Below are positions 36,585-61,000 of a stretch of 64,000 bases of DNA, in pieces. The notes under the pieces were generated by a model. That model did not search any database. It worked only from the letters and a program-made list of their open reading frames with translations, and was not told the origin of the DNA. Position numbers and translations under genes: made by a program. Within the stretch, counting starts at the first letter, position 1; the number at the start of each line of letters is the position of its first letter. Source of the stretch: an uncultured Paracoccaceae bacterium (GTDB taxonomy: Bacteria > Pseudomonadota > Alphaproteobacteria > Rhodobacterales > Rhodobacteraceae); NCBI GenBank assembly GCA_947494675.1, contig CANLVP010000002.1:868001-932000 (forward strand), given 5' to 3'.

Positions 36585-37307
36585 TCACAACCAGCGCTCT
36601 GGCGAAATCAAGGGTCTGAAGTAGGCAATGGGGCGCGGCGCATCACCGTCACTCCATGGGGCAACCCCGTGGATCAAGTGCCGGTGAAGGAGGGTCGCTT
36701 CCCCCACCCGTGCAGGCAGTTCAACCCGTTCGCAGTTCTCAAACACGTCGCGGCGGGCGGCTTGATAGACGTCAGTCACTTCCAGATCACCCCATTCTGA
36801 CGCATCCACACCAGCAAAGGCCTGGGTAAACGCTGTCTGTATGATGTGATGTGACCCGCGCCAAACCACCAAGGGGCTGCTGGCAACGTCCGATAGCGGC
36901 AGACCGAGGATGAAGCCATGCGGCTCTCGCAGGTGTCGGCGCTTTTCGGGGCCTTCGGGCAGTAATCCATCAAGGTGGGCAGCATCCCGTGTGGCGCGAA
37001 ACCGATGGGCGGCATCGCTTTCACCCGTGTCTTGCTGCGGGTAGCCTGGAAAGACCACCGAAAGCTGTGCGGCGTGCCATGTCGCTGGCGGGTCAATCAA
37101 CCCCCCCCAAGGGCCTTTCAGCGGAACGTCCCCGATTGATCCATCTGCCGCATTCGGCAAGGCATCAACACCAACAAACCATGTTCCGCCATGGCGTCTT
37201 TCTGTCATATCAATGGTTTGCGCGGCATTCTTCGCGGCTTCGGCCCAACGCGCCACCCGTGCGTCCCACGGCAAGAGCGCAAAGCCTTCGGTGGCAAAGC
37301 CTACCAC
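36585..37307 (-). CDS. PhyH-like Fe(II)/2-oxoglutarate dioxygenase
   Basis: 240 residues. The iron site reads AAHLDGLLPEG (H-x-D) and HRHLIHGVAPW (distal His), with RPIAYFRP after it. EPHGFILGLPLSDVASSPLVVWRGSHH is the double-stranded beta-helix core of the phytanoyl-CoA dioxygenase family. The start is GTG, overlapping the stop of the TauE gene by seven bases. Substrate unknown; its position at the end of a transcript holding an anion exporter and, further up, a sulfosugar cluster makes an organosulfur substrate conceivable, but nothing in the residues shows it. Confidence 0.78.
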   Translation of the reverse strand: MVGFATEGFALLPWDARVARWAEAAKNAAQTIDMTERRHGGTWFVGVDALPNAADGSIGDVPLKGPWGGLIDPPATWHAAQLSVVFPGYPQQDTGESDAAHRFRATRDAAHLDGLLPEGPEKRRHLREPHGFILGLPLSDVASSPLVVWRGSHHIIQTAFTQAFAGVDASEWGDLEVTDVYQAARRDVFENCERVELPARVGEATLLHRHLIHGVAPWSDGDAPRPIAYFRPLISPERWL

Positions 37308-38119
37308 CCGGCCGCCTTGCGCAGCATATTCAGCGCCACAAGGATCAGGAACACGCCGAACACCCGCTTGAGCGGTTTGGGGTCCATCCTATGGGCCAAT
37401 GCAGCACCCAAGGGCGCTGTGATCAGCGTCATCGCGACGACCAGCACGAAGGCCGCAAGGTTCACCGACCCCAAAGTCAGCGGCGGGGCCACGGCCACGG
37501 GGGACATCAGGAACCCGATCACTGCCGGCACCGCGATAATCACGCCAAAGCCTGCCGCCGTCGCGACCGCGCGGTGGATTGGCACGCCATGCAGGGTCAT
37601 CAGCGGCACGCCAAAAGATCCGCCGCCGATCCCCATCAGCACCGACAAAAACCCCACAACTGGCGAAAACGCGGCACGAAACACGCCGCCCGGCATTTTA
37701 TCACCCCGCCGCCACGTGGACTTGCCAAAGGTCATGTAGAGGCCAACCAGCACCGCCAATCCGCCAAAGATCGCCTGCAAGGTGCCGGATCGTAGTGCCG
37801 CCGCGGTCACGACGCCAATGCAGGCCCCCACGACAATCCCCGGCGCCCAGCTGCGCAGGATTGACCATTCCACAGCACCCTTTTTGTGGTGCGACATGAC
37901 CGAACGGGTGGAGGTGAAGATGATCGTGGCAAGCGAGGTCGCCAGACAGATTTGCATCAGCTGCGGGCTGTCATAACCCAAAGCCGAAAAGGCGTAAAAG
38001 AACGCGGGCACCAGAACGATCCCGCCGCCGACCCCCAAAAGCCCGGCGAGCACGCCTGCGAAAGCACCAATCACCATGATCAGCGCGGCTGTCCCAAGCA
38101 AGAGCCCCATATCATCCAT
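37301..38119 (-). CDS. TauE/SafE family anion (probable sulfite/sulfonate) exporter
   Basis: 272 residues, about eight transmembrane helices. The family opening GAFAGVLAGLLGVGGGIVLV is present and repeated in the second half (VGFLSVLMGIGGGSFGVPLM), the internal duplication of TauE/SafE. These proteins export sulfite, sulfoacetate or similar anions. The ATG shares one base with the dusA stop (TGATG). The upstream genes on this strand are dusA, the sqgA-like gene and gntR, so read-through from the sulfoquinovose cluster is possible; that would suit export of the sulfite released there. Confidence 0.82.
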   Translation of the reverse strand: MDDMGLLLGTAALIMVIGAFAGVLAGLLGVGGGIVLVPAFFYAFSALGYDSPQLMQICLATSLATIIFTSTRSVMSHHKKGAVEWSILRSWAPGIVVGACIGVVTAAALRSGTLQAIFGGLAVLVGLYMTFGKSTWRRGDKMPGGVFRAAFSPVVGFLSVLMGIGGGSFGVPLMTLHGVPIHRAVATAAGFGVIIAVPAVIGFLMSPVAVAPPLTLGSVNLAAFVLVVAMTLITAPLGAALAHRMDPKPLKRVFGVFLILVALNMLRKAAGW

Positions 38120-39111
38120 CACGCGGCCTTTTCTGTGACATGTTCCAATGCGCGCAGCACCACATCCGTAGAGGCCCCATCGCGGTGCGCTTGTTCCGAC
38201 AAGGTCCGCCGCCAGCCCCGTGCACCCGGGCGTCCTTGGAACAGGCCCAGCATATGTCGCGAGACGTGATGCAACCGCCCGCCGCCTGCAACGTGGTCCG
38301 CAATGTACGGCAACATCAGATGCACAACCTCTTCAGCGGTGCGTGCGAGGCCTTTGCCAAAAATCCGCGAATCCGCTTCCAGCAAGATCGTGGCAGGAGT
38401 GTGGTAGGCCGCACGTCCGATCATGACGCCGTCCACCCCCCCATCCAGAAATTCTGCAGCATCATCAAGTGTTTCGACGCCACCGTTCACACTTAGATGC
38501 AGATGCGGAAAGGTCGCTTTCATCTGCCGCACCAGATCATAGTCCAGCGGTGGGATATCGCGGTTTTCCTTGGGACTTAGCCCCTGCAGCCACGCCTTGC
38601 GGGCATGAATCGCAAAGCGGTCAACGCCCGCTGCACTCACCCGTGCAATGAAATCCGGCAAGACCTCTGTCGGGTCCTGTTCGTCCACGCCGATCCGGCA
38701 TTTGACGGTGACAGGCACGGTCACCGCCGCCCGCATCGCCGCGACACAATCGGCCACCAATGCGGGGCTTTCCATCAGAACGGCCCCAAAGGACCCTGAC
38801 TGCACCCGATCCGACGGGCAGCCACAGTTGAGGTTCACCTCATCATAGCCGAAATCTTCGCAAATCCGAGCGGCCTGCGCGAGTTGCACGGGATCAGACC
38901 CGCCCAATTGCACCGCGACAGGATGCTCGCGCGCATCAAAACCCAAGAGCCGGTCGCGGTCGCCGTGGATCACCGCCGGCGCCGTCACCATTTCGGTGTA
39001 AAGCAGGACGTGTTGCGACATGGACCGGTGCAGCACGCGGCAATGCCGGTCCGTCCAATCCATCATAGGGGCGACGCTCAAACGCGCGTTATGGGCCACA
39101 GGGTCATTCAT
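38119..39111 (-). CDS. dusA: tRNA-dihydrouridine(20/20a) synthase DusA
   Basis: 330 residues. It reduces uridine in the tRNA D-loop with FMN and NADPH. The start APMMDWTDRHCR and YTEMVTAPAVIHG are DusA-specific; the catalytic Cys is in VNLNCGCPSDRVQSG. HARKAWLQGLSPKENRDIPP is the FMN and tRNA-binding motif. The family GRAAY and C-terminal four-helix region are present. It is a housekeeping gene placed 46 bases after the sqgA-like gene and coupled to tauE. Confidence 0.95.
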   Translation of the reverse strand: MNDPVAHNARLSVAPMMDWTDRHCRVLHRSMSQHVLLYTEMVTAPAVIHGDRDRLLGFDAREHPVAVQLGGSDPVQLAQAARICEDFGYDEVNLNCGCPSDRVQSGSFGAVLMESPALVADCVAAMRAAVTVPVTVKCRIGVDEQDPTEVLPDFIARVSAAGVDRFAIHARKAWLQGLSPKENRDIPPLDYDLVRQMKATFPHLHLSVNGGVETLDDAAEFLDGGVDGVMIGRAAYHTPATILLEADSRIFGKGLARTAEEVVHLMLPYIADHVAGGGRLHHVSRHMLGLFQGRPGARGWRRTLSEQAHRDGASTDVVLRALEHVTEKAA

Positions 39112-39157: not shown

Positions 39158-40246
39158 TTACAGCAACACGGCCTGTCCTGATGCGGCGCTTTCCTGTGCG
39201 GCTAGCCCCATGGCGACGGCGCGTGCGCCGTCGTCCAACGTGACTTCGACCGTGCCCTCACCGCGGATCACGGCGTTGAAACGCTGGTGCTGATAGAAGG
39301 TTGAGCCATTGTGATCCCCTGCCTCAAGCAGCGTTGGATCAACCGGCACTTCGCTAATGATTGGCCCTTTGGGCGCACGCGGGCTGATCACGAGCTGCGG
39401 CACGGGTGCGGGACCAAGCAGTTGCGGCCAGAACCGGCCGGGTCCGGGAACAAGTGCTTCGATCTTGCCGTTGGGGCCAACGGCGCTGATTTCTTCCTGA
39501 TACCGGCTGCCTTCTGCAAACATGCACAATTCCAGCATCGCCCGTGCACCGCTATCAAAATCGAGGATCACATAGCCGTTGTCCCAGATATCAGGCACGC
39601 GACCGTCGTAGTCTTCATCCTTGTGATTGAGCGTTTGACCTGCGCTGGCCATCACCCGCACAGGCTCTGATTTCAGGATCAGGCGCATGAGATCGAAGAA
39701 GTGACAGCACTTTTCGACCAAAGTGCCGCCGGTGTTGGCGTTGAACCGGTTCCAGTCGCCGATCTTGGGCAGGAAGGGAAAGCGATGCTCGCGCACGGTC
39801 AGCATGGAAATCCCGCCGGTGGCGCTTTCGACCTGATTAATCAGCGCTTGAATGGGCGGCATGTAGCGATATTCCATCGCGACCCAGACCGGCGCGTCGT
39901 AGCTTTTTGCAAATGCGGTGATCTTTGCCGCATCCGCAGGGTCGGTATAAAGCGGCTTTTCGCATAGGATCGGAACGGTCTTTTTCGCGGCGATCTGCTG
40001 CAATTGATCCACATGCAGGAAATTGGGGCTGACAATGACGACCGCATCAAGGTGCGGATGATCCATCAAGTCATCAATGCTGACGGCAACGGTCGCTTGC
40101 CCTGCCAAATCAGCCGCCGATTGCGCCAGATCGTCCACCGGATCATAGACAACGCTGACCTGACCGTGCGGCAGTAGATTGATATTCTGGATGTGCTCGC
40201 GCCCCATCATGCCACAGCCGATCACGCCGTAGTTCACCATTTCCAT
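39158..40246 (-). CDS. sqgA: Gfo/Idh/MocA family oxidoreductase, candidate NAD-dependent sulfoquinovosidase (SqgA/GH188 type)
   Basis: 362 residues. The N-terminal Rossmann fold has YGVIGCGMMGREH (6-18) and the family EKP motif in CEKPLYTDP (95-103). GGTLVEKCCHFFDLM (173-187) gives Lys179 and His182 as likely catalytic residues. In the GH188 glycosidases of this superfamily NAD+ transiently oxidises sugar C3 so that the glycosidic bond can be eliminated. It follows gntR by six bases and diverges from a smoC-like operon. No classical GH31 sulfoquinovosidase is in the window, which fits the known substitution of SqgA for it. Function is inferred from family and context; a plain sugar dehydrogenase is the alternative. 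Confidence 0.65.
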   Translation of the reverse strand: MEMVNYGVIGCGMMGREHIQNINLLPHGQVSVVYDPVDDLAQSAADLAGQATVAVSIDDLMDHPHLDAVVIVSPNFLHVDQLQQIAAKKTVPILCEKPLYTDPADAAKITAFAKSYDAPVWVAMEYRYMPPIQALINQVESATGGISMLTVREHRFPFLPKIGDWNRFNANTGGTLVEKCCHFFDLMRLILKSEPVRVMASAGQTLNHKDEDYDGRVPDIWDNGYVILDFDSGARAMLELCMFAEGSRYQEEISAVGPNGKIEALVPGPGRFWPQLLGPAPVPQLVISPRAPKGPIISEVPVDPTLLEAGDHNGSTFYQHQRFNAVIRGEGTVEVTLDDGARAVAMGLAAQESAASGQAVLL

Positions 40247-40252
40247 CCGGAC

Positions 40253-40960
40253 TTACCCTTTTCCCATGCGCGACACATAGCGCGCTTTGTTGTTGTCAAA
40301 CCATGTGCGTGAAAACTCCACAGGGCTGCCCTCGGCGCTCCTGCTGATCCGCTCGATGTAGCCCACGGCAATGCCACCGCGCAGGTGAAAGGCCTCTGGC
40401 GTCCAGCGCGGAAGTTGCGCGACACCGATGCGGTCCTCGACGCTGGCGATGACCACGCCCAATTCATCGCGGTAAAATTCATAGAGCGAGTCTGACAGAT
40501 CGCTCACCGTCACTGATTCCCGCAGAGATCCATCTAGCCAGATCTCTTCCAGCGCCATCAAATCGCCGTCCAGCCTGCGCAAACGCCTGATCCGGTGGCC
40601 TTCCTCGTCAGGGCCAAAATCAGGGGCATCCTTTGGCTTTGTCAGCCGGTCAACCGACAGCACATCTGCGGTCGGCAAGCCACCACCGCGCACCTTTTCA
40701 AGGCGGAAAAACGCATAGACGCTTTGCACATCGGGAATGTGGCGTACGTAGTTGCCAGAGCCTTGAACGCGATCCAAAAGCCCCTTGCCTTCCAGGTCAG
40801 CCAGCGACTTGCGCAAGGTCCCGACAGAGATGCCAAGCTCTGCTGCCATCTCGCGTTCCGGCGGCAAACGCGCGCCATCGGCAAGGTGCCCGGCGGCAAT
40901 CTCACGGATCAGCATTTCGCTCACAGCGACGTATTTTGGCAGCGCGGACGCTTGCGCCAT
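40253..40960 (-). CDS. GntR-family (HutC-type) transcriptional regulator, likely controlling the sulfoquinovose genes
   Basis: 235 residues. The winged helix is YVAVSEMLIREIAAGHLADG, then LPPEREMAAELGISVGTLRK. The C-terminal UTRA ligand domain includes FGPDEEGHRIRRLRRLDGDL, MALEEIWLD and FSRTWFDNNKARYVSRM. UTRA domains bind sugars, sugar phosphates or related effectors, so sulfoquinovose or a pathway intermediate is a reasonable ligand. It is divergent from smoC, with a matching dyad between them, and probably represses both operons. Confidence 0.87.
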   Translation of the reverse strand: MAQASALPKYVAVSEMLIREIAAGHLADGARLPPEREMAAELGISVGTLRKSLADLEGKGLLDRVQGSGNYVRHIPDVQSVYAFFRLEKVRGGGLPTADVLSVDRLTKPKDAPDFGPDEEGHRIRRLRRLDGDLMALEEIWLDGSLRESVTVSDLSDSLYEFYRDELGVVIASVEDRIGVAQLPRWTPEAFHLRGGIAVGYIERISRSAEGSPVEFSRTWFDNNKARYVSRMGKG

Positions 40961-40989
40961 AACGCGACCCTCCCCGGCCTGCGTAAAAT

Positions 40990-41007
40990 TGATACACTAT
41001 TGTTTCA
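40990..41007. promoter_or_regulatory. Dyad operator between gntR-sqgA and smoCBA
   Basis: TGATACA-CTAT-TGTTTCA is an inverted repeat with seven-base arms and one mismatch, 18 bases in all. It is the only good dyad in the roughly 100-base divergent region, so it is the best candidate for the GntR binding site. It lies 53 bases before the smoC ATG and 30 bases before the gntR start. Confidence 0.55.
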
Positions 41008-41059
41008 CTCAAAATCCCGTGCTACGCAAGTCCCAAGAACAGATTCTTTGGGGGAAGTC

Positions 41060-42220
41060 ATGGATCAAGTTGTCCCGGTCACCAGCGCCGATCTCGATGC
41101 GGCAGAGGTATCGTGGTTTTCGGCCCTATGTTCGGACGACTATCAGTTCCTCGGCGTGCCCGACGGCGACTTGCGGTCGTCTTGGGAACACTGCCGCGAC
41201 ATCGCGCTTACGGCTGAAAACCAAGGGTTCCGCAATATTCTTGCCCCTTCTTCGTATCAAGTTGGTCAGGACACTCTGTCCTTTGTCGCGGGTATTGCCC
41301 CGCTGACCGAAAAGATCAATTTCCTCGCCGCGATCCGCTGCGGGGAGGTGCAGCCGATCATGCTGGCCCGCACAATCGCCACGCTTGATCATATGCTCAA
41401 AGGTCGCCTGACGCTGAACATCATTTCCTCGGATTTTCCCGGGGAAAAGGCCTCTTCGCCCTACCGCTACAAGCGCAGTCATGAGGTGGTCGAGATCCTG
41501 CGACAGGCTTGGACACAGGATGAAATCAACCACGACGGCGAGATCTACCAATTCGCCAATGTCCCGACCGACCCTGCGCGGCCTTACCAGCAAAACGGTG
41601 GTCCTTTGCTGTATTTTGGCGGTTACTCTCCCGATGCGATGGAACTTTGCGGCGCGCAATGTGACGTCTATCTGATGTGGCCTGAAACCCAAGATCAGTT
41701 GGCGCAACGGATGAAAGACGTCCACGCACGGGCTGAGGCCCATGGCCGCACGCTTGACTATGGTCTGCGGGTCCACATGATCGTGCGTGACACCGAACAA
41801 GAAGCGAAAGAATACGCCGATTACATCGCCTCCAAGCTTGACGATGAATACGGCAAACTGATCCGCGACCGCGCCCATGACAGCATCAGCCTTGGGGTGG
41901 CCCATCAGGCCCGCGCCCGCGAGCTGGCCGATCAATTTGGCTATACAGAGCCTGGTCTTTGGACCGGTGTTGGCCGCGCCCGCTCCGGCTGTGGTGCGGC
42001 GCTTGTCGGCTCTACCGACCAGATTCTGTCGAAAATTGAGGGTTACAAAAAGATGGGCATCCGTGCTTTCATCTTCTCAGGTTATCCGCACATCGCAGAG
42101 GCCGAACACTTTGGCGCCCGCGTCATGCCCGAACTCAAGACCTGCTCTTTGCCGCACGCCCATGGCCGCGTCCCGGCACAGACACCCGCAACGCCCTTGG
42201 GCACAGGAGAACGCCGCTAA
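41060..42220 (+). CDS. smoC: FMNH2-dependent sulfoquinovose monooxygenase (SmoC-like, luciferase-like family)
   Basis: 386 residues, a bacterial-luciferase-like barrel related to alkanesulfonate monooxygenase SsuD. It begins MDQVVPVTSADLDAAEVSWF. INFLAAIRCGEVQPIMLART, LDHMLKGRLTLNIISSDFPG and YRYKRSHEVVEILRQAWTQ are the FMN and substrate segments of the SsuD group. CGAALVGSTDQILSKIEGY is near the C-terminus. From memory it is very close to Agrobacterium SmoC, which splits the C-S bond of sulfoquinovose to give sulfite and 6-dehydroglucose. The aldo/keto reductase and flavin reductase that this reaction needs follow with no gap. GGGGGAAG precedes the ATG; a much longer in-frame reading overlaps gntR and is rejected. 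Confidence 0.82.
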   Translation: MDQVVPVTSADLDAAEVSWFSALCSDDYQFLGVPDGDLRSSWEHCRDIALTAENQGFRNILAPSSYQVGQDTLSFVAGIAPLTEKINFLAAIRCGEVQPIMLARTIATLDHMLKGRLTLNIISSDFPGEKASSPYRYKRSHEVVEILRQAWTQDEINHDGEIYQFANVPTDPARPYQQNGGPLLYFGGYSPDAMELCGAQCDVYLMWPETQDQLAQRMKDVHARAEAHGRTLDYGLRVHMIVRDTEQEAKEYADYIASKLDDEYGKLIRDRAHDSISLGVAHQARARELADQFGYTEPGLWTGVGRARSGCGAALVGSTDQILSKIEGYKKMGIRAFIFSGYPHIAEAEHFGARVMPELKTCSLPHAHGRVPAQTPATPLGTGERR

Positions 42221-43111
42221 ATGGATCGCGTCCAGATCACCCCCAATTTGACTTTCAGCCGCATTGTTTATGGCATGTGGCGTCTGGCCGAAGCCGACGA
42301 TACCTCGGCCGCGCATGTGCAAGCCAAGGTCGAGGCCTGCCTTGCCCAAGGCATCACCACGATGGATCAAGCCGACATCTACGGCGGCTATGAGGCCGAA
42401 GAGGTGTTTGGCGCCGCGCTGAAAGCGGCCCCGGCACTGCGCGACCAGATCGAGATTGTCACCAAATGCGATATCGTCGCCCCTGCCGGGCGCTATGCAG
42501 ATGCGCGGGTGAAATACTACGACACATCCGCCGATCACATCCGCGCATCGGTCGATCATTCCTTGCGTTTGATGAACATCGACCACATCGACCTTTTGCT
42601 GGTTCACCGCCCCGATCCCTTTATGGATCATCTTGAAACCGGTGCGGTGCTGGATGAGGTTGTGGCAGCAGGTAAGGTTGGCGCGGTTGGCGTGTCGAAC
42701 TTTAAGCTGCACGACTGGAATTTGCTGCAATCGGCGATGAAGACCCAGCTTGCCACCAATCAGATCGAGCTTTCAGTCACTGCGCATGCAGGCTTCACCA
42801 ATGGTGACGTGGCCTACCTGCAGGAACGCGCCAAGCCGATCATGGCGTGGTCGCCTTTGGGCGGCGGCAGCCTGATGACGGGCGAAGGCCCAGTACAAGA
42901 CGCGTTGGGCGCCGTTGCCTCAGCCAATGGCGTGGACAAAAGCGCTGTTGCAGTCGCTTGGCTGCTGGCGCATCCTGCCAAGATCATGCCAGTGATGGGC
43001 ACCAACAATATGAACCGCATCAGCAGCTTAGCAGATGCACTTAAAGTTCAGATGGACCGCCAGACCTGGTATGAAATTTACACAGCGGCCTTGGGCCAAG
43101 AGGTGCCATAA
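42221..43111 (+). CDS. smoB: Aldo/keto reductase, probable NADPH-dependent 6-dehydroglucose reductase (SmoB-like)
   Basis: 296 residues. The AKR tetrad is Asp49 and Tyr54 (TMDQADIYGGYEAE), Lys82 (VTKCDIVAPAGRY) and His129 (LLLVHRPDP). The NADPH site is MPVMGTNNMNRISSLA. The N-terminus FSRIVYGMWRLAEADDTSAA and the stretch ending ADIYGGYEAE match my recollection of Agrobacterium SmoB, which reduces the 6-aldehyde left by SmoC to glucose. Translation starts at the base after the smoC stop and its own stop overlaps smoA by one base, so the three proteins are made in step. Confidence 0.8.
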   Translation: MDRVQITPNLTFSRIVYGMWRLAEADDTSAAHVQAKVEACLAQGITTMDQADIYGGYEAEEVFGAALKAAPALRDQIEIVTKCDIVAPAGRYADARVKYYDTSADHIRASVDHSLRLMNIDHIDLLLVHRPDPFMDHLETGAVLDEVVAAGKVGAVGVSNFKLHDWNLLQSAMKTQLATNQIELSVTAHAGFTNGDVAYLQERAKPIMAWSPLGGGSLMTGEGPVQDALGAVASANGVDKSAVAVAWLLAHPAKIMPVMGTNNMNRISSLADALKVQMDRQTWYEIYTAALGQEVP

Positions 43112-43617
43112 TGGACGCAGGAACCATCGCCACGTTTGACCCGTCAACCGACGCGGATAGCTTTCGCGGCGCGCTTGGCACCTTTGTCACGGGCGTGACC
43201 GTCGTCACCACCGACAGCCCCGAGGGGCCTGTGGCCATCGTCGCCAATAGCTTTGCCAGCGTCTCGCTCGACCCGCCGCTGGTGCTGTGGTCCCCCGCCA
43301 AATCGTCCAAACGGTTTGAACACTTTGCAGGCTCGCGCCGCTTTGCTGTCCATGTGCTTGCTGCCGACCAGCGCGATATCTGTGCGGCCATCGTGAAATC
43401 CAAAACCGCCATTGCGGATGTGCCCACCCACCTTAGCCACTGCGGCATGCCCATCATCGAAGGGGCGCTTGCCACCTTCGAATGCAACCTTGAGGCCACG
43501 CATGATGCAGGCGACCACGTGATCATCGTGGGCCGCGTCACAAAAGCCCATCACACCGACGGGGAACCACTTGTGTTCCACGGCGGCAAATACGGAACGT
43601 TCAACATTGCCCCATGA
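43111..43617 (+). CDS. smoA: Flavin reductase (SmoA-like) supplying FMNH2
   Basis: 168 residues of the flavin reductase-like FMN-binding split barrel (HpaC type). FRGALGTFVTGVTVVTT is the family start, PVAIVANSFASVSLDPPLVL binds flavin, and the late GDHVIIVGRVTKAHH with FHGGKYGTF closes the barrel. It would reduce FMN with NAD(P)H for the monooxygenase. It overlaps smoB by one base. The transport genes follow after a 114-base gap occupied by repeats. Confidence 0.85.
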   Translation: MDAGTIATFDPSTDADSFRGALGTFVTGVTVVTTDSPEGPVAIVANSFASVSLDPPLVLWSPAKSSKRFEHFAGSRRFAVHVLAADQRDICAAIVKSKTAIADVPTHLSHCGMPIIEGALATFECNLEATHDAGDHVIIVGRVTKAHHTDGEPLVFHGGKYGTFNIAP

Positions 43618-43706
43618 TGTTTTCTTTGGTTCACAAGTATCCCGGGGGGTCGCGTAGCGACGGGGCAGCGCCCCCAGACTAAAAATGAAGCGACCGCAAA
43701 GCGGTC
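43618..43706 (+). repeat. Family 1 repeat plus hairpins between smoA and the TRAP genes
   Basis: Starts after the smoA stop with the core CTTTGGTTCACAAGTATC. The GC-rich part holds GTCGC-GTA-GCGAC (43649-43661) and GGGGC-AGC-GCCCC (43662-43674). A separate perfect hairpin GACCGC-AAA-GCGGTC follows at 43692-43706. Lying inside an apparent operon, they could attenuate or process the message so that enzymes and transporter are made in different amounts. Confidence 0.65.
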
Positions 43707-43731
43707 ACCATATAACAGGGGAGGAGCCGCA

Positions 43732-44331
43732 ATGTCGGTCCTGTTTGGGGTCCTTTGGCCCTTGGAAAGGTTCAACACCGCGATTCTCGCGGTGGGTCGA
43801 TGGATTTCGGTCGTAGCGCTTGCGCTCATGGTCATTGTGATCCTGTCACAGGTCTTTTTCCGTTACGCCGTGGGCGACGCGCTCAACTGGTCGGAAGAGG
43901 CCGCGCGCTTCGGCATGCTTTGGATGACCGGCCTGATGGCTCCGCTGGCCTACCGCATTGGCGGCTTTGTCGCGATCGATATGCTGGAACGGGCCCTGCC
44001 CCGTATGCTCGCGGGCCTTCTCGCGCTCTTCCTTCTCGCGGTTTCGCTTTGGGTCCTGATCGTCTTTTGGGAACGCGGGTTGAACAACCACGTCGATACC
44101 CTTTCAGGTCGCGGCTGTTCGGCCTCTCTGCGCTGGCCCTTCGGGATCGAGATCGGTAAATGCGGCGCAAAGTTCCAGAATAACTTTCAGTTTGCCTCGC
44201 TCTGGGTGGGGATGAACTTGCTGATCCTCGTGAACATCGAACTGATCATCCGTCAGCTGATTACCTTTGCGGGTCATGGCGACAAACTGACCCGTCTGAC
44301 GGCAGACGAAGACATCGCGGGGGCAAACTAA
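43732..44331 (+). CDS. TRAP transporter small permease (DctQ family)
   Basis: 199 residues with four transmembrane helices. ILSQVFFRYAVGDALNWSEE and AARFGMLWMTGLMAPLAYR are the DctQ signature. There is an unusual polar insert between helices 3 and 4 with two cysteines (RGCSASL, GKCGAKF), making it longer than common DctQ proteins. It pairs with the large permease. GGGGAGGAG is its ribosome site. The substrate is inferred from the neighbouring smo genes as sulfoquinovose or its glycosides. Confidence 0.88.
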   Translation: MSVLFGVLWPLERFNTAILAVGRWISVVALALMVIVILSQVFFRYAVGDALNWSEEAARFGMLWMTGLMAPLAYRIGGFVAIDMLERALPRMLAGLLALFLLAVSLWVLIVFWERGLNNHVDTLSGRGCSASLRWPFGIEIGKCGAKFQNNFQFASLWVGMNLLILVNIELIIRQLITFAGHGDKLTRLTADEDIAGAN

Positions 44332-45812
44332 TGCTGATCTGGTTCCTACCTCTTTTCCTTCTCCTGATCATGATCGGCCTGCCGGTGGTCTTTGGCCTTT
44401 TGGCTGCACCAATCGCCTTGATCATGATGGAAGGCGATACCCGCAACGTCGTCGCGGGTCTTTACCGCAACCTTTACAACGGCATGGACAGCTTTCCGCT
44501 GATGGCCCTGCCGTTCTTTATGCTCGCAGGCGAAGTCATGAACCGGGGCGGCATTACTGTGCGTCTCGTTGAATTCTCCCAAGCCTTTATGGGCCACCTG
44601 AGGGGGGGACTCGCACACGTCAACATCCTCTCCTCCATTCTCTTTGCCGGGCTGTCAGGCTCTGCTGTTGCCGATACATCCGCGCTGGGGTCAACGCTGA
44701 TCCCCGCGATGGAAAAGAACGGCTATACCCGGAAATTTGCCGCCGCTGTGACCGCTGCGTCCTCGGTGATCGGTCCGATCATTCCGCCCTCGGGCATTAT
44801 GATCATCTATGCCTATGTCATGGGTGAAAGCGTCGCGGCGCTGTTCCTTGCAGGCATCGTGCCCGGCATCATGGTGGGTGTTGGCCTGATGGTCATGGTC
44901 CGCCTGATGGCTGATCGTTACGAGCTGCCAAAGGCGGAACGTATTGTCACCAAGGACCAGACCATCAGCCCGGTTGAATACTGGGTCAGCTTTGCGCTTT
45001 TGCGGCTGAACGTCGGTGGTTTGCTCTGGCTTTTGGGCAGCAACTTCCTGCCCGAGGGTCAATCGGGTGCAGGCTGGGCGCTGTTCTTGGCAGCCTTGGT
45101 TGCGGCGCACTTTATCCTTGTTGGCTATCGCAAACGGTGCAGCCACGATTTCCGCATGGTCGCCAAAAAGGCTGTGGCCCCGCTGCAGACCCCGATCATC
45201 ATTTTGGGCGGTATCCTTGTGGGCGTCATGACCCCGACCGAAGCCTCTGCTATCGCCGTGGCCTATGCGCTTGTCGTTAGCTTCCTTGTGCTGCGCTCGA
45301 TGAACGGGCGCGACCTGATCGAAGTGCTGACCAAATCGGCGCTGTCGACCTCTGCGGTGCTCTTGCTGGTTGGCGCGGCGGTGTCGTTCAAAACCGTCGT
45401 GTCTCTGTCACACGCCCCTGAGATCATGTCGGAATACATCCTTGGCCTGTCCGAGAATCCGCTCGTGCTCTTGTTCCTGATCAACATCCTGCTGTTTATC
45501 GTCGGCATGTTCCTTGATGCGGGGCCAGCGATCATCATCCTGGGGCCGATCCTTGGACCGATCTTTGTCGATCTGGGCGTCCACCCTGTCCACTTTGCCA
45601 TCATCATGTCGGTCAACCTGACCGTCGGATTGGCGACCCCGCCCATGGGCTTGGTCTTATTCGTCGCGAGTACCGTCTCGGGCGAAAAGGTCGAAACGAT
45701 CGCCAAGGCGATTTTGCCCTTCCTCGCGGTTGAGATATTCGTGATCTTCCTGATCACTTACGTCCCAGCCATTTCAATGACGATTCCGCGCTTGACGGGC
45801 TTCGTCCAATAA
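44331..45812 (+). CDS. TRAP transporter large permease (DctM family)
   Basis: 493 residues, about twelve transmembrane helices. MALPFFMLAGEVMNRGGIT, the helix-hairpin FAAAVTAASSVIGPIIPPSG and VNLTVGLATPPMGLVLFVAS are the inverted-repeat hallmarks of DctM. An extra hydrophobic stretch around 225-280 makes it longer than the usual 425 residues. It is the Na+-driven channel of the transporter. Its ATG shares a base with the dctQ stop (TAATG). Confidence 0.92.
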   Translation: MLIWFLPLFLLLIMIGLPVVFGLLAAPIALIMMEGDTRNVVAGLYRNLYNGMDSFPLMALPFFMLAGEVMNRGGITVRLVEFSQAFMGHLRGGLAHVNILSSILFAGLSGSAVADTSALGSTLIPAMEKNGYTRKFAAAVTAASSVIGPIIPPSGIMIIYAYVMGESVAALFLAGIVPGIMVGVGLMVMVRLMADRYELPKAERIVTKDQTISPVEYWVSFALLRLNVGGLLWLLGSNFLPEGQSGAGWALFLAALVAAHFILVGYRKRCSHDFRMVAKKAVAPLQTPIIILGGILVGVMTPTEASAIAVAYALVVSFLVLRSMNGRDLIEVLTKSALSTSAVLLLVGAAVSFKTVVSLSHAPEIMSEYILGLSENPLVLLFLINILLFIVGMFLDAGPAIIILGPILGPIFVDLGVHPVHFAIIMSVNLTVGLATPPMGLVLFVASTVSGEKVETIAKAILPFLAVEIFVIFLITYVPAISMTIPRLTGFVQ

Positions 45813-45856
45813 CGGGACACTGTTCCCAAACCGACCAACGCATAGGGAGAGAATAC

Positions 45857-46915
45857 ATGCTCAAAGGTCTACTGAAAGGCGCACTTGCCGCCACGCTGCT
45901 TGCAGGGTCTGCAATGACGGCCACGGCACAGGATTTTACGATCCGCGCCACAGCAAACTCTAACGAAAACGACGAAGACTATGATGGTCTGGTCGTGTTC
46001 AAGAACTACGTCGAGGCGGCCTCTAACGGGCGCATCGCTGTGGAACTCTTCATCGGCACGCAGCTTTGCGGCACTGGTGCAGAGTGTCTTGAAGGCGTCT
46101 CTGAGGGCTCAATCGATGTCTATATCTCCACCTCTGGTGGTGCGGCCGGCATCTTCCCTTATGTGCAGGTTCTTGATCTGCCCTACCTGATGTCCGATGA
46201 CCGCGTGGCCGAGGCCGTGCTGACAGGTGACTTTGTCCGCACCATGCGCGACATGGCGCTGGAAACATCCGGCAACACAATCCGCCTGATGACTGTCGGC
46301 AACACCGGTGGCTGGCGCAACTTTGCCAACACGCAGCGTCGTGTTGCGATGCCATCTGACATGGAAGGTCTGAAAATCCGGACTGTTGTCGCTGACCTGC
46401 CGCAGGAACTCGTCCGCGCACTTGGTGCGTCCCCGACCCCGATCCCATGGCCCGAGCTCTTTACCTCGTTCCAGACCGGTGTTGTTGAAGGTTCCAAGAA
46501 CGGCATCACCGACATCATGGGCATGAAGTTCCCTGATGCGGGTCTGCAATATGTCACGCTTGACGGTCACGCCTACATGGGTGCGCTGTGGTGGATGTCG
46601 AACGACAACTTCATGGCGATGCCAGAAGATCTGCGTAAAGTCGTCGTTGATGGCTTCAGCCAGCTGCAGCAGGCAACGTTTGCCTCGCCAAAGCGGAAGT
46701 CCATCGAAGCCTATGAGGCCTTCGTTGCAGGTGGTGGCGACCTTTATGTCCCGACACCAGACGAAAAAGCCGCATTCGCCGAAGCAGCTGCCCCTGTGCA
46801 GGACTGGTTCCGTGGCAATGTTGACGGGGGTGACCAAATCCTCGACGCGCTGATCGCTGCTGTGGCCGAAGCCGAAGCCGGTCTGGCCGAAGACTACGCC
46901 AAAGACCTGAACTAA
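45857..46915 (+). CDS. TRAP transporter substrate-binding protein (DctP family)
   Basis: 352 residues. Signal peptide MLKGLLKGALAATLLAGSAM with TATA before QDFTIRA sends it to the periplasm. The conserved carboxylate/anion-binding Arg is in GLKIRTVVAD, followed by PIPWPELFTSFQTGVVEG, the family signature. A Cys pair (LCGTGAEC) near residue 80 may form a disulfide. It would capture sulfoquinovose, sulfoquinovosyl glycerol or a related anionic sugar; the TRAP Arg suits a sulfonate. It is the last gene of the operon. Confidence 0.9.
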   Translation: MLKGLLKGALAATLLAGSAMTATAQDFTIRATANSNENDEDYDGLVVFKNYVEAASNGRIAVELFIGTQLCGTGAECLEGVSEGSIDVYISTSGGAAGIFPYVQVLDLPYLMSDDRVAEAVLTGDFVRTMRDMALETSGNTIRLMTVGNTGGWRNFANTQRRVAMPSDMEGLKIRTVVADLPQELVRALGASPTPIPWPELFTSFQTGVVEGSKNGITDIMGMKFPDAGLQYVTLDGHAYMGALWWMSNDNFMAMPEDLRKVVVDGFSQLQQATFASPKRKSIEAYEAFVAGGGDLYVPTPDEKAAFAEAAAPVQDWFRGNVDGGDQILDALIAAVAEAEAGLAEDYAKDLN

Positions 46916-48858: not shown

Positions 48859-49329
48859 TCAGTTAAACGGATACATCCACACCCGGTAATCGTCGATCAG
48901 CACCTCCGCGCGGGCGCGTTCCTCTGCTGTCAAGCGCGGCGTGATTTCTTCAAGCGAATCCAATGCGTCAGGGTCCCCGCCTATTGCTGAAAGCGCATAC
49001 CAAAGGTAGGCTCTGACCATATCAGGTGCGGGCAAACCGCGCCCCACCTCGTAGTACCAGCCTAGCCCAGATTGCGCCCCCGGATGCCCCTTCAACGACG
49101 ACCTGAGATACCAGTCAAATGCCCGCTCATCGTCGCGCGGCACGCCAAGTCCCATGGCGTACATGACACCGATCAGCTCTTCGGCGTCGGCATTGCCAGA
49201 GCGGGCGTAAAGTTCGAACATCTCGCGCGCTTCTTCAAAGGCACCCGCCTCCATCAGATCGCGCGCTTCCTCCATATCGGCCGCCGCCGTGCCCGCCCAC
49301 AGGCACAGGGCCATCGCTATCTTGCGCAT
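48859..49329 (-). CDS. Sel1-repeat-like periplasmic protein
   Basis: 156 residues. Signal peptide MRKIAMALCLWAGTAAA. ADAEELIGVMYAMGLGVPRD and AQSGLGWYYEVGRGLPAPDM are two Sel1-type helical repeats, with further helices on both sides. Such repeats hold protein partners. AAGGAG nine bases upstream firmly sets this start, which abuts the start of the divergent peroxidase. Its stop codon adjoins that of the convergent membrane protein with no gap. Confidence 0.8.
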   Translation of the reverse strand: MRKIAMALCLWAGTAAADMEEARDLMEAGAFEEAREMFELYARSGNADAEELIGVMYAMGLGVPRDDERAFDWYLRSSLKGHPGAQSGLGWYYEVGRGLPAPDMVRAYLWYALSAIGGDPDALDSLEEITPRLTAEERARAEVLIDDYRVWMYPFN

Positions 49330-49332
49330 CTT

Positions 49333-50589
49333 TTGTGTCTCCTTGCTGCACCGGTTGCGGCCCAGATCAGCCCCGACGATTACATTGCCGCTGACCCTGA
49401 TCAAGCCCGCCTTGGTCAACTTTTGTTCTATGATAAAATCCTGTCAGGCAACCGCAATATCTCTTGCGGCACATGCCACCACCACGACCTTGCAGGCGGT
49501 GACGGTCTGTCGCTTGGCATCGGTGAGGGCGGTGTTGGCGTTGGCCCTGATCGCACCGCTGGCACGGGTGCTGATCAGATCAAAAAGCGCATCCCCCGTA
49601 ATGCCCCAGCGCTCTGGAATATCGGGCACAACAGCGTTGAGGTACTGTTTCACGATGGCCGCCTCTCGGTCTCTGATATCTACGGCAACGGCTTCAATTC
49701 CCCGGCAGAGGAATGGCTGCCCAAAGGCCTCGACAATATCGTCGCGGCTCAGGCCCTGTTCCCGCTCACCGCACAATTTGAGATGGCGGGCAATCCCGGC
49801 GAAAACGATGTGATCGGGGCCGTGCGCAACCGCATCGACCGCGGCTGGCCGATCATCGCCAAACGTGTCCGCACGATCCCAGAGTATGGCGAGATGTTCG
49901 TCGCGGCCTTCCCCCACATCAACGACCCAAGCGAGGTTACAATCGTCGAGATCGGCAATGCGCTTGGGGCGTTCATCAGCACCGAATGGCGATCGTCAGA
50001 TAGCCCCTATGACGCATGGTTGACCGGCACCCCGCTGCCCGACGACGCCGAGCGCGGGCGACAGCTCTTTACCAATTTGCGCTGTGCCTCCTGCCATGCT
50101 GGACCGCTTTTTACCGATCAAGATTTCCATAGCATTGGCGTTCCCGCCTTTGGCCCTGGCCGCACCCGACGGTTTGATCCGATGCCCCGCGATGTTGGTC
50201 GGATGGGCGAAACCGACCTGCTGGAGGACGCCTATAAATTCCGCACCCCTTCCTTGCGCAACGTGGCTCTGACTGGCCCCTACGGCCACAACGGTGCTTT
50301 CCCAACGCTTGAGGCGATGATCCGTCACCACGCAGGTCAGGACATCTGGACCCCTGAGATGGCGCAATTGCCCGATGTCCCGTGGCTTGCGGCAGGCGAT
50401 TTTGCGATCCGCGCCGACACCCGCGAAATGGCCCGGCTGGCTGCGGCGCGTGAATTGGCACCCTTCACGGTGAGTGATGCCGATATCGCTGACCTCACCG
50501 CCTTCCTGCACGCCCTGACCGGTAAATCCGCCGAGACCCGCCCATTGGGCCGGCCTGAGACTGTCCCTTCCGGCCTGCCGGTCGATTAG
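49333..50589 (+). CDS. Di-haem cytochrome c peroxidase family protein
   Basis: About 418 residues. Two haem c sites, CGTCHHHD and CASCHAG, are at family spacing. The peroxidase/MauG landmarks FYDKILSGNRNISCGTC, DIYGNGFNSPAEEW and FRTPSLRNVALTGPYGHNGA follow. The family reduces H2O2 or oxidises large substrates in the periplasm. The start is uncertain: TTG at 49333 gives a short leader (CLLAAPVAAQ), and no ATG or GTG suits in this frame for 80 codons upstream. A start inside the Sel1 gene on the other strand, or a frameshift, is possible. Confidence 0.85.
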   Translation: MCLLAAPVAAQISPDDYIAADPDQARLGQLLFYDKILSGNRNISCGTCHHHDLAGGDGLSLGIGEGGVGVGPDRTAGTGADQIKKRIPRNAPALWNIGHNSVEVLFHDGRLSVSDIYGNGFNSPAEEWLPKGLDNIVAAQALFPLTAQFEMAGNPGENDVIGAVRNRIDRGWPIIAKRVRTIPEYGEMFVAAFPHINDPSEVTIVEIGNALGAFISTEWRSSDSPYDAWLTGTPLPDDAERGRQLFTNLRCASCHAGPLFTDQDFHSIGVPAFGPGRTRRFDPMPRDVGRMGETDLLEDAYKFRTPSLRNVALTGPYGHNGAFPTLEAMIRHHAGQDIWTPEMAQLPDVPWLAAGDFAIRADTREMARLAAARELAPFTVSDADIADLTAFLHALTGKSAETRPLGRPETVPSGLPVD

Positions 50590-50644: not shown

Positions 50645-51820
50645 TCACCCCCGGATCAAAACACCCAGATCAGCAACATTGGTGCCGGTCGCCTCTGTGA
50701 TCAGCAAATCGCCCGCCTCTTTCAGCGCGGCATAGCTGTCGTTGTTCGCAAGCAACCCATCAACGTCGCTGATCCGTGCCAAGGTGCCCTGATCCACCAG
50801 ACCGCCTGCGGCATCCGTCGGCCCGTCACGCCCGTCTGATCCACCTTGCAGACAGGTCCAATTGCTCCAGCCTCGCGCCTGCGCCTCTAACGCGATCCGC
50901 AAGGCGAGCTCTTGGTTGCGTCCACCGCGCCCGTCACCTTTCAGCACGACCGTGGTCTCGCCGCCCCAGATGGTGACCCCCGGCCCGGCCTGATCGCAGA
51001 TCACCTTGGCGGCCTCGGCGACATCGCCCTCAACTGGCTCCAGAACGGTGCAAACCCCGGCGACCTTTTGCATGGCGGCCACGCTCAGCGCGTTTGACCC
51101 TACAAGGATATTCTTGGCCGCTGGCAAAGGATCCGGTGTCTGCCCTGCCGCAAGATGCGCCTTGACCGAGGCTGGCATGTCATCCCAGATCCCCGCACCT
51201 TGTAGGACATCAACCGCCTCTTGCGCGGTGCCAATTGGGGCGACGGTCGGCCCGCTGGCAATCACAGCCAAATCATCGCCAACCACATCCGACAGGATGA
51301 GCGCGGTGACCGGCCCAGCCGCCGCGCGCAACATGCCACCGCCTTTCAGCTCCGAAAGTTGCTGACGCACCAAGTTCATCGCTGTGATCTCAAGCCCGCC
51401 GCCCAAGAGCGCCCGGTTCACTGCCTGTTTGTCGGCCAAGGATACGCCTGCGACCGGTGCGGGCAACAGGGCCGACCCGCCGCCAGACATCAACACAAGG
51501 ATTGGTCCGTCCGCGGCCCGCAAGGCCGCAAGAACACGCTGGCCTGCCATCAGGCCGTTTTCGTCCGGCACGGGGTGGCCCGCCGCCAGTACCTCTGCCC
51601 CTGCCAACTCGCTGGCGTTTTCGTAGTTCGTCACCACAAGCGTTTGCACACCGGGAAAGGCGGCAATCGCGGGTGCGGCCATCGCGCGTGCGGCTTTGCC
51701 GACCGCAATGATCAGCTTTGGCGGTGTGATCCCGGATAAGTGCTGCGCGACCGCAGCTGTTGGGTCTGCCGCGGCAACCCCGGCTTGAAAAATTTCGAAT
51801 GCGTGCTGTCTTTGATCCAT
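50645..51820 (-). CDS. Glycerate 2-kinase (MOFRL family)
   Basis: 391 residues. The type II glycerate kinase (GckA/TtuD) fold is clear: IIAVGKAARAMAAPA, VVTNYENASELAGAEVLAAG with HPVPDENG, VLMSGGGSALLPAP, LSDVVGDDLAVIASGPT and the C-terminal MOFRL domain WGGETTVVLKGDGRGGRNQE. It makes 2-phosphoglycerate from glycerate, feeding central metabolism from serine-cycle, glyoxylate or C3 sources. The ATG at 51820 begins MDQRQHAFEIF as in relatives; a TTG 42 bases upstream is less likely. It is divergent from imuA. Confidence 0.88.
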   Translation of the reverse strand: MDQRQHAFEIFQAGVAAADPTAAVAQHLSGITPPKLIIAVGKAARAMAAPAIAAFPGVQTLVVTNYENASELAGAEVLAAGHPVPDENGLMAGQRVLAALRAADGPILVLMSGGGSALLPAPVAGVSLADKQAVNRALLGGGLEITAMNLVRQQLSELKGGGMLRAAAGPVTALILSDVVGDDLAVIASGPTVAPIGTAQEAVDVLQGAGIWDDMPASVKAHLAAGQTPDPLPAAKNILVGSNALSVAAMQKVAGVCTVLEPVEGDVAEAAKVICDQAGPGVTIWGGETTVVLKGDGRGGRNQELALRIALEAQARGWSNWTCLQGGSDGRDGPTDAAGGLVDQGTLARISDVDGLLANNDSYAALKEAGDLLITEATGTNVADLGVLIRG

Positions 51821-51937
51821 GCGCGCAGAAAACCCTGCATGAACAGGAACGACAAGCCCCAATTCACTCCATTTGGAGGCCTAATAACATGCGACCAATG
51901 CCGAACAGAGGTTTGACGGATAGGACAAAGTGAATTA

Positions 51938-58033: not shown

Positions 58034-61000
58034 ATGGGGGAATTGGACATGTTTGGACGCTTCAAAATCGGTATTCAGTTTGGTGGATTCGGACCGGACA
58101 CATTGACGGGAAGTGCCCGGAAAGACGTGCTTTTTGGACGTCGGGGCGATGACACGATTGATGGGGACGCAGGCAAGGATCAGCTCTTTGGTGGCTTTGG
58201 CAACGATTCCCTGATCGGCGGGGCTGGTGCGGATAAATTGTTCGGTGGTTTTGGCCTCGACACTGCCGTTTTTGAAGGCGGCGTCGATGATTACACCGTC
58301 CACGGCGTAAAATCCAACGGTCGCGGCCCGATCAAAGCCAAGGTGACGGACGCCAATGGCGACACCGACCGGCTCCATGGTGTTGAGGCGCTTTATTTCG
58401 CCGCTGACGACTACACCGCCCATCTTGATGGCCGCAATAACGCCGTACTGGCGCGCGATGACCAGGCTGCATCTGACGCCACGGGCGCGATCCTTGCGGG
58501 GCTGACGGACAATGATTTCGACTTTGACGGCGATGCGCTGACGATCACCAGCATCGATACAAGCGGCCTCACCGGCTCTGCCACGCTGAACGATGATGGC
58601 ACGATCAGCTATGCCACCGACGGCGCATTTGCCGCACTCAAAGAAGGTGAAACCGCCGAGACAACGCTCACCTACACGGTCAGTGACGGCAATGGTGCCA
58701 CCGATACAGCGACCGTAACCATCACCGTCACGGGCGAAAACGACGCGCCCGAGCTGACGCTTGCTGATGCCGTGGATGTCGCGGAAAACACCACCGCCGT
58801 TGCAACCGCCAGCGCCTTTGACGTCGATGGCGACGCGATCACCTACAGCCTTTCGGGCGACGACGCGGTGCTGTTTGCTATCGACGCAAATGGCGTGCTG
58901 ACCTTTGTGGACGCCCCCGATTTTGAAGCCCCCGCCGATCTGGATGGCGACAATGTCTATGACGTGACCGTCACCGCCAGCGATGGCAGCCTGAGCGACA
59001 GCGCTGACATCGCCGTGACCGTCACGGACGAGGATGAAGGCCCCGCCCCCAAGGTCTGGATCAACGAATTTCACTATGACAACACCGGCAGCGATGTCGG
59101 CGAATTCATTGAACTTGCAGGCACGGCAGGCGTCGATCTGACCGGCTGGTCCATCGTGCTTTATAACGGGTCGAACGGCACCGCTTACAACACGATTGAC
59201 TTGTCTGGGGCGCTTTCGGATACCGCAGGCGGCTTTGGCTTTGACGTCACCGACCTGCCAAGCAACGGCTTACAGAACGGCGCGCCCGACGGGATCGCCT
59301 TGGTTGACAGCAGCGGCGATGTAGTTGAATTCATCTCCTACGAAGGCAGCCTGACTGCCACCGATGGCCCCGCGGCAGGCCTGACCTCTCAGGATGTGGG
59401 CGTGGCAGAAACCAGCAGCCAAGCCGTAGGCGGATCGATCCAACGCAGCGGCGTGCAGGACGAATTCGTCTGGACCGTGACCACCACCAATACCTCGGGC
59501 AGCGTCAACGAAGGCCAAACCTTGGGCGATGTACCACCCAACGTCTACATCAACGAATTTCACTACGATAACACAAGCACGGATGTGGGCGAGTTTATCG
59601 AAGTGGCAGGCGATGCGGGCACGGATCTGACCGGTTGGTCGCTGGTGCTGTACAACGGTTCCAATGGCACGCCTTACAACACCATCGCGCTTGATGGCGT
59701 CTTGGCGGACACCGACAATGGTCTTGGCTTTGACGTGACCGACCTGCCCACCAATGGCCTGCAAAACGGTGGCCCCGATGGCATCGCGCTGGTGAATGCG
59801 GATGGCAAGGTGGTTGAGTTCCTGTCCTACGAAGGCAGCTTTGACGCTGTCGGCGGCGCTGCGGATGGCATGACATCGACCGACATCGGCGTGTCAGAAA
59901 CAAGCAGCACAGCTGTGGGTGACAGCCTGCAACGGGCGGATGACGGCACATGGTTTGGGCCCGCGCCGGAAACCAAAGGGGCCGCAAACGACGCCGGGAC
60001 ACCTGTGGCAACCGATGTGGCCCTGTCGGAGTTCCACTACGACAACGCAGGCAGCGACGTGGACGAATTCGTCGAAGTATCGGGCACTGCAGGCGCCGAT
60101 CTGACCGGTTGGTCGCTTGCGTTCTACAACGGCTCTAATGGCACGGTCTACAACACCGTGGCGCTGACCGGCACGCTGAACGCGGATGGTTTCGCCTCGG
60201 TTGATGTGCCGGGCATACAAAACGGCGCGCCCGATGGGATCGCCTTGGTTGCGCCTGACGGCACCGTGACAGAGTTTATTTCCTACGAAGGCGACCTGAC
60301 AGCCACCGATGGCCCCGCCTCAGGCATGACAGCCACCGACATCGGCGTGTCCGAGACCAGCAGCACCGCCATTGGCGACAGCCTGCAAAAGGATGCGGAC
60401 GGCAACTGGCAGGGCCCAGCCGCCAGCACACGCGATGCGGCCAATGACGACGCACCACCGCCCCCACCCCCGCCAACCGGCACAACGCTGATTTCGACGG
60501 TGCAAGGCAGCGGTGCGGCCTCTGCCCTTGATGGCGTGATCGTCAATGTCGAGGCCGTCGTGACCGCAGTGATGTCGAACGGCTTTTACCTGCAGGAAGA
60601 GGATACCGACGCCGACGCGGATGCTGCGACATCCGAAGGCATCTTTGTCTTTACCGGCGACACGCCCGGCGTCACGGTCACTGATGTGGTCTATGTCACC
60701 GGCACGGTCGACGAATTCTTCGACTTCACCCAGTTGACCGACGCCACTGTCACGCAAATCGGCACCGCTGCATTGCCAACGGCCGCCGATCTGACCTTGC
60801 CCGACAGCATCGCCAGCTTGGAGAATTTCGAGGGCATGCAAGTCAGCCTCGCCTCGGACGATGCCAATGCGCCATTGACGATTATTGAAACGTTCAACTT
60901 TGACCGTTTCGGCGAAATCGTTGTCAGCGAGGGCACGCAAATTCAACCAACGCAAATCTATGATGCGCAAACCGAATTGGCCGAAATCCAAGCCCTTACA

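Follow-up and report, generated by a model that had tools for sequence, protein, structure and literature searches.

The stretch of DNA analyzed here, referred to throughout as the window, comprises 64,000 nucleotides from an uncultured Paracoccaceae bacterium (assembly GCA_947494675.1, contig CANLVP010000002.1), and our subject is a probable gene cluster within it for the use of the sulfosugar sulfoquinovose (SQ). Eight genes between 39158 and 46915 had been placed by an earlier sequence-only reading, and the list of open reading frames (ORFs) contains all of them at the positions and with the spacing given there, with Pfam concordant for 8/8. On the reverse strand lie sqgA (39158–40246), predicted to encode an NAD+-dependent sulfoquinovosidase of glycoside hydrolase family GH188 with the Gfo/Idh/MocA fold, and the gene for a GntR/UTRA-family regulator (40253–40960; PF00392 and PF07702). 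Across a divergent promoter with a candidate operator, AATTGATACACTATTG (40987–41002, forward strand), follow the forward-strand genes smoC (41060–42220, starting with the ATG at 41060), smoB (42221–43111) and a smoA-type flavin reductase gene (43111–43617), of which the first two are assigned to an FMNH2-dependent SQ monooxygenase and to a 6-oxo-glucose reductase of the aldo/keto reductase type. Downstream on the same strand are the three components, in order, of a tripartite ATP-independent periplasmic (TRAP) transporter, namely the small permease DctQ (43732–44331; PF04290), the large permease DctM (44331–45812; PF06808, with 397 bits to TIGR00786 over a cut-off of 268) and the solute-binding protein DctP (45857–46915; PF03480), proposed from its gene company to bind SQ or an SQ glycoside.

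No base separates smoC from smoB, and smoB/smoA and dctQ/dctM each overlap by 1 base. The sequence-only reading had this spacing in the enzyme run right, as it did the TRAP downstream and the divergent gntR, but the three enzyme genes that it described as fused are separate adjacent ORFs. The conserved neighborhood also extends past 46915. About 2 kb beyond dctP are a gene for a Sel1-repeat protein (48859–49329, reverse strand; PF08238), whose N terminus by eye resembles a signal peptide, and, in divergent orientation to it, a gene for a MauG/CcpA-type di-haem c protein (49333–50589, forward strand; start uncertain, ORF open from 49072), and this pair (48859–50589) recurs beside the same TRAP.

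Among solved structures, the predicted SmoC protein matched 7olf with 745 bits and 7oh2 with 719 bits (residues 4–385), followed by 7jv3 with 198 bits and E. coli SsuD (1m41) with 181 bits; we take 7olf and 7oh2, whose PDB names are generic, to be structures of SmoC. Two SsuD models matched the protein with 237 and 231 bits, below their cut-offs of 518 (equivalog) and 510, and in a search of the organism's own genome with an SsuD model this protein was the sole match. From these bit scores and cut-offs the monooxygenase is assigned as a SmoC orthologue distinct from SsuD, and an SsuD identity was rejected. SmoB gave 417 bits to 7bby, presumably Agrobacterium SmoB under another generic PDB name, versus 207 bits to YdhF (1og6), and its translation contains D49-Y54-K82-H129, which we take to be the signature tetrad of the aldo/keto reductases; it is assigned as the SmoB orthologue in the same cluster as SmoC. 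The close matches to SmoC and SmoB and the full tetrad, all claimed by the sequence-only reading, were borne out, and the contrary outcome that it had named, a monooxygenase grouping with SsuD, did not occur. A recent survey scores a genome as positive for the sulfo-SMO (sulfoquinovose monooxygenase) pathway if SmoB and SmoC are encoded with their matches inside a 10-ORF window (PMC13372026).

The product of the divergent Gfo/Idh gene gave 514 bits to 8zn9, 377 bits to 8qc3 (ArSqgA) and 371 bits to 8qc2 (FlSqgA with SQ), and the sequence of 8qc3 is that of the SQ complex 8qc6. The ArSqgA residues described for SQ and its sulfonate are K107, Y136, R166, L170, K172, E189, H193 and H321 (PMC10755693), and their counterparts in the window protein, in that order, are K97, Y126, R155, L159, K161, E178, H182 and H312, so that 8/8 are conserved; the correspondence was read by eye from alignments, in which Glu163 as printed in that paper was not placed with certainty. 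On these matches and residues the gene is assigned as a GH188 NAD+-dependent sulfoquinovosidase. For GH31, a search of the organism's own genome gave 0 matches, and the positive control of the same search gave matches in 6/14 genomes. The GH188 identification removes the concern that a sulfoquinovosidase is missing, and it probably extends the organism's substrates beyond free SQ to SQ glycosides such as sulfoquinovosyl glycerol (SQGro). The cluster had been called complete by the sequence-only reading, whose coordinates do include the Gfo/Idh gene but whose text misses it as the sulfoquinovosidase.

SmoC was found in 165/394 family genomes (E 1e-100). Around it, in the best 80 GTDB loci out of 292 relatives, a set skewed to close relatives and in several cases with short flanks, SmoB was present at 79/80, a SmoA homologue (44–98% identity) at 78/80, and both GH188 and the GntR regulator at 80/80; because the gene set recurs in this way, the arrangement is not a matter of chance. 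The genome counts here and below include the window's own genome and come from searches that score no more than a few top candidates in each genome, the co-occurrence rows for DctP/SmoC, di-haem and glycerate kinase were transcribed by hand from search outputs, and all Fisher values ignore shared ancestry. The enzyme core, GH188 included, is of an already known kind and is not novel. Kaur et al. describe GH188 as near-universal in Roseobacter-clade sulfo-SMO clusters (PMC10755693), and sulfo-SMO clusters are prominent in aquatic genomes in a 2026 survey (PMC13372026), so that what had been presented as an important trait for a marine bacterium is unsurprising in a Roseobacter-type genome. The interpretation itself, use of a sulfosugar by the sulfo-SMO route, appears largely right, being supported by the enzyme identities, by GH188 and by the 80 conserved loci.

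The divergent intergenic region carries a conserved element. AATTGATACA, on either strand, was found in 65/81 intergenic regions and is retained in rows from Rhodobacteraceae and Rhizobiales, and so across two orders. When up to 1 mismatch is allowed, the 14-bp TTGATACACTATTG has 1 occurrence across the genome of 3.9 Mb, with no second operator copy in the genome at that stringency and 0 occurrences of the reversed control; at up to 3 mismatches the window has 1 match versus 1.55 expected, so that looser matches are meaningless. By eye, a −10-like TACGCA lies at 41023–41028. We regard the TTGATACACTATTG element as a candidate operator for the GntR protein, and it may overlap the promoter.

The less known part of the locus, and the one worth a second look, is the TRAP, which accompanies more than one gene set, together with its di-haem/Sel1 company. 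All three TRAP genes were present at 60/74 SmoC loci that have at least 5.5 kb of downstream sequence, and partial sets were present at 0. Across the 394 family genomes DctP was found in 144 and SmoC in 165 (both in 110, SmoC alone in 55, DctP alone in 34, neither in 195). DctP and SmoC could be placed relative to one another in 98 of the 110 genomes with both; 92/98 pairs lay within 10 kb, and the remaining 6 were on different contigs.

The 34 loci with DctP and without SmoC, the latter meaning no match at E 1e-100 (one of them, L141, holds a SmoC fragment at a contig end), were split into 22 that resemble the sulfoglycolytic Embden-Meyerhof-Parnas (sulfo-EMP) type, 4 partial SMO, 1 SMO fragment, 5 other and 2 dropped for a DctP identity below 60% (L126 and L130, the latter with kinase and isomerase). 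The 22 EMP-like loci each combine the TRAP with two or more genes from a set of three, encoding a PfkB kinase, a LacD-type aldolase and a protein resembling SQ isomerase, and GH188 was found in 26/34. On a quick DctP tree (LG+G4, no bootstrap), SMO versus EMP company needs at least 4 changes, 2 per label being forced by starred branches. The simplest reading of this company with two gene sets seems to be that the TRAP follows the substrate and not the pathway, and the gene company points to SQ or SQGro as the substrate of DctP; NCBIfam and Pfam searches with DctP gave no ligand name. A sulfonate is plausible as TRAP cargo because TRAP importers have been proposed for taurine and sulfolactate (PMC10507020) and for isethionate (PMC6386719), and an isethionate TRAP binding protein, 8t9t, is among the solved structures.

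Individual loci show other arrangements. Among cultured relatives with the cluster, Cognatiyoonia sediminum DSM 28715 (L013) carries dctP, the di-haem gene, sel1 and sqgA, and Yoonia vestfoldensis SKA53 (L010) gave no di-haem match in its flank. L071 and L073 are TRAP-less and carry, downstream of SmoC, ORFs that by eye are like parts of ABC (ATP-binding cassette) sugar transporters, a possible TRAP replacement. The stretch 4653–12576 of L125 holds GH188, GntR, TRAP and the Sel1/di-haem pair, and neither SmoABC nor sulfo-EMP genes gave a match there. Four loci (L116, L123, L135 and L144) have SmoB and TRAP, with SmoA in 3/4, and their genomes gave no match to SmoC at E 1e-100; the loci seem to be smo clusters without their monooxygenase, and in L123 a Rieske-type-looking ORF (by eye) adjoins SmoB. 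Resemblance to proteins of the phytanoyl-CoA dioxygenase type was noted by eye for ORFs near the TRAP in L114 (2636–3379) and L119 (7916–8605) and near the SQ genes in the window (36585–37307, reverse strand). A TauE-type exporter gene and a dihydrouridine synthase gene beside sqgA (37301–39111, reverse strand) were rejected as cluster members, being present at only 8/80 and 9/80 SmoC loci and at 0/34 and 1/34 DctP-only loci, respectively, which probably reflects local synteny.

A di-haem orthologue, defined by a cut of at least 467 bits that was set after seeing the score gap from 467 to 401, occurs in 118 places in 113/394 genomes, and 106/113 also have the TRAP (DctP). The TRAP occurs without di-haem in 38 genomes, which gives an odds ratio of 97, uncorrected for ancestry. 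At E 1e-90 the di-haem search matched 218 genomes, the 105 beyond the 113 having a more distant homologue only. Di-haem/TRAP pairs on one contig lay within 8 kb in 86/92 cases, and 14 further pairs were on different contigs. Di-haem was present in 79/110 SmoC genomes with DctP versus 5/55 without, and in 27/34 DctP genomes without SmoC. The order of the genes is constant, the di-haem gene being downstream of and co-oriented with dctP and sel1 being divergent in 45/45 loci (SMO 21, EMP-like 19, other 5), a count that required more than 60% identity in DctP and more than 30% of the di-haem protein. Outside the 45 are L045, with a 46% partial match at the edge and no TRAP, and L146–L148, which account for 3/7 TRAP-less di-haem cases and have the gene directly beside SmoA with no Sel1 match. 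At the DctP-only loci the pair was present in 24/34 and eight other window neighbors in 0–1/34. In L129 the di-haem gene (ending at 11795) looks part of the catabolic operon because it overlaps the kinase gene (starting at 11792).

The di-haem protein has two CxxCH sites, C57-C60-H61 and C263-C266-H267, which are invariant in 30/30 aligned proteins, and its PF03150 match (122 bits) makes it a member of the di-haem cytochrome c peroxidase (CCP) superfamily. It falls below the cut-off of all 4 NCBIfam models matched, and with 109 bits against a cut-off of 444 it fails the MauG equivalog TIGR03791 (tryptophan tryptophylquinone biosynthesis). Its predicted structure has a mean pLDDT (predicted local distance difference test) of 74 and a predicted template modeling score of 0.79, with pLDDT below 50 at 273–280 and 289–319 in the C-terminal haem region. 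Matches listed by Foldseek were MacA, bacterial CCPs, the MbnH-type 6e1c and MauG, with TM-scores of 0.45–0.55 by query and 0.51–0.72 by target and with 22–27% identity; CCP and MauG are not separable by Foldseek. The Sel1 protein contains a dozen conserved Trp and Tyr residues; the alignments comprised 47 Sel1 and 51 di-haem rows after duplicates, low-coverage rows and rows with stops had been dropped. MauG and MbnH oxidize aromatic residues of partner proteins, MbnH acting on MbnP. By analogy one guess is that the di-haem protein might modify its Sel1 partner; other guesses are that it might remove peroxide or oxidize the imported glycoside. The pair is probably periplasmic, and it is an accessory of the cluster and not a requirement.

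Taken together, these data make it very probable that the locus is an SQ-utilization cluster of the sulfo-SMO type, with TRAP uptake, GH188, GntR control and a Sel1/di-haem pair in the TRAP neighborhood. The basis is gene identity and conserved gene company, from which we infer every step of activity, transport and regulation. SQ, and probably SQ glycosides, would enter through the DctPQM TRAP, and cytoplasmic SqgA would free SQ by NAD+-dependent transient oxidation at C3. With reduced flavin from SmoA, SmoC would cleave the C–S bond of SQ oxidatively to give sulfite and 6-oxo-glucose, and SmoB would reduce the latter to glucose, following the sulfo-SMO reaction sequence as given in PMC12890257; the glucose would then enter metabolism via a glucokinase, which is encoded elsewhere in the genome. 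The divergent promoter would be controlled by the GntR protein through TTGATACACTATTG. As a first guess, the probably periplasmic Sel1/di-haem pair would serve oxidative partner modification or detoxification during uptake.

Several observations weigh against parts of this reading. The SmoA identity is the weakest of the assignments, resting on family (PF01613) and position; the nearest NCBIfam model is FerA, at 195 bits below a cut-off of 260, and none of the matched solved structures is labeled SmoA. The TRAP is wholly absent nearby at 14/74 SmoC loci and is therefore not obligatory, 55/165 SmoC genomes are without DctP at E 1e-100, and the odds ratio of 11.5 for DctP/SmoC co-occurrence ignores shared ancestry. 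Uptake of SQ has been attributed to ABC systems (PMC12421959), and an arginine/carboxylate contact is described as restricting TRAP binding proteins to carboxylates (PMC4646407). We infer sulfo-EMP-type clusters from the TRAP-bearing kinase/aldolase/isomerase loci, and the label goes no further than that because the L129 isomerase reaches 252 bits against the cut-off of 700 for the NCBIfam SQ isomerase and the nearest matches of the L129 aldolase are 8tnf (326 bits; a DUF2090 protein) and tagatose-bisphosphate aldolases, with only 54 bits to YihT of the SQ pathway. The flanks of 59/80 SmoC loci, some of them short, contain no Sel1/di-haem match, among them those of the close relatives L002, L003, L005 and L007 and of all loci with Rhizobium, Agrobacterium or Pannonibacter titles, and G333, a genome of the same genus, has the di-haem pair at a distance of 650 kb from its TRAP. 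In the literature searched, whose coverage was partial, including that on SQ use in Roseobacter, we found no paper linking SQ to a TRAP importer or to a di-haem peroxidase.

The alternative that survives best concerns the accessory pair. The Sel1 and di-haem proteins could be no more than a common periplasmic peroxidase unit, carried along as a hitch-hiker of the TRAP through shared ancestry, and we consider this quite possible, if somewhat short of an even prospect. The 59 pair-less loci are in keeping with it, and among the 106 genomes with both, di-haem and DctP share a contig but are separated by over 8 kb in 6 (G333 among them) and lie on different contigs, some of them long, in 14; the 105 genomes with a more distant di-haem homologue only point the same way. 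Simple hitch-hiking sits less well with an order and orientation that hold in 45/45 loci across SMO, EMP-like and other contexts, with the di-haem/kinase gene overlap in L129 and with the retention of the pair, and of almost none of eight other neighbors, at the DctP-only loci.

A more tentative proposal, which we put forward with considerable doubt, is that the TRAP, the Sel1 protein and the MauG-type di-haem protein form an exchangeable periplasmic module that takes up SQ glycosides and is paired with enzymes of either the sulfo-SMO or the sulfo-EMP route, and that the di-haem protein of this module would oxidize the aromatic-rich Sel1 partner or the imported molecule. As an example within this proposal, the glycerol end of SQGro might be converted to a carboxylate, which a TRAP would favor and which, after GH188, might feed the neighboring glycerate kinase. 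The gene concerned (50645–51862, reverse strand) is a putative glycerate kinase named by eye only and a recurrent neighbor with a weak link. A homologue lies within 6 kb of di-haem, DctP or SmoC in at least 14 of the 96 family genomes that have one, the window's own included, a minimum in that only positions chosen as relevant were entered. With only 23/80 SmoC loci and 1/34 DctP-only loci it was rejected as a firm member and is kept as a weak lead. Were the module proposal true, the di-haem enzyme would have an undescribed job in sulfosugar use.

It is unlikely that the TRAP carries a different compound (a sugar acid, for example, or a short sulfonate) and that only local synteny accounts for its place beside the SQ genes. 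The reported carboxylate restriction would suit such a cargo, as would the weak matches of DctP to its nearest solved structures (111 bits and below) and the 14/74 SmoC loci that manage without a TRAP, but the TRAP accompanies two different enzyme sets that both share GH188, it changes between SMO and EMP company at least four times on the unbootstrapped tree, and TRAPs have been proposed for three other sulfonates. If SQ or SQGro is the cargo, as we prefer, SQ uptake in the family would often proceed via a TRAP not tied to a single SQ pathway, and the TRAP would be a pathway-independent genomic marker. Highly improbable, finally, is a reading in which the monooxygenase serves sulfur scavenging, as a general alkanesulfonate enzyme of the SsuD type or as one for another sulfonate, and has its neighbors by coincidence. 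The shared superfamily of SmoC and SsuD, the two SsuD model matches and the generic names of 7olf and 7oh2 lend it a little room, set against a bit score about 4 times higher to the presumed SmoC structures than to SsuD, two missed SsuD cut-offs, and SmoB and GH188 at 79/80 and 80/80 SmoC loci.

Farther along the window, a 1418-residue ORF (58034–62290, forward strand) looks by eye to encode a secreted protein with calcium-binding repeats and a nuclease-like C-terminal part.

The enzymes of the window represent a known route for the Roseobacter-type degradation of one of the largest organosulfur pools, with support here for glycosides beyond free SQ. The window resembles the sulfo-SMO systems (also called sulfo-ASMO) of Agrobacterium tumefaciens and Novosphingobium, built from SmoABC or SquD/SquF/SsuE, in that a single operon encodes SmoC and SmoB together with a flavin reductase. 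The Agrobacterium cluster is made up with a GH31 enzyme and an ABC importer; the window has GH188 in place of the GH31 sulfoquinovosidase and a TRAP in place of the ABC importer. Its enzymes, including GH188, are the same as those of the Roseobacter-clade sulfo-SMO clusters in PMC10755693, the main text of which, as far as covered, is without discussion of a TRAP or of a di-haem/Sel1 pair. With MauG, MbnH and the bacterial di-haem CCPs (PF03150) the window's di-haem protein shares the two CxxCH sites and the overall fold, and it differs from them in its sub-cut-off model scores and in its linkage to a TRAP and a Sel1 protein.

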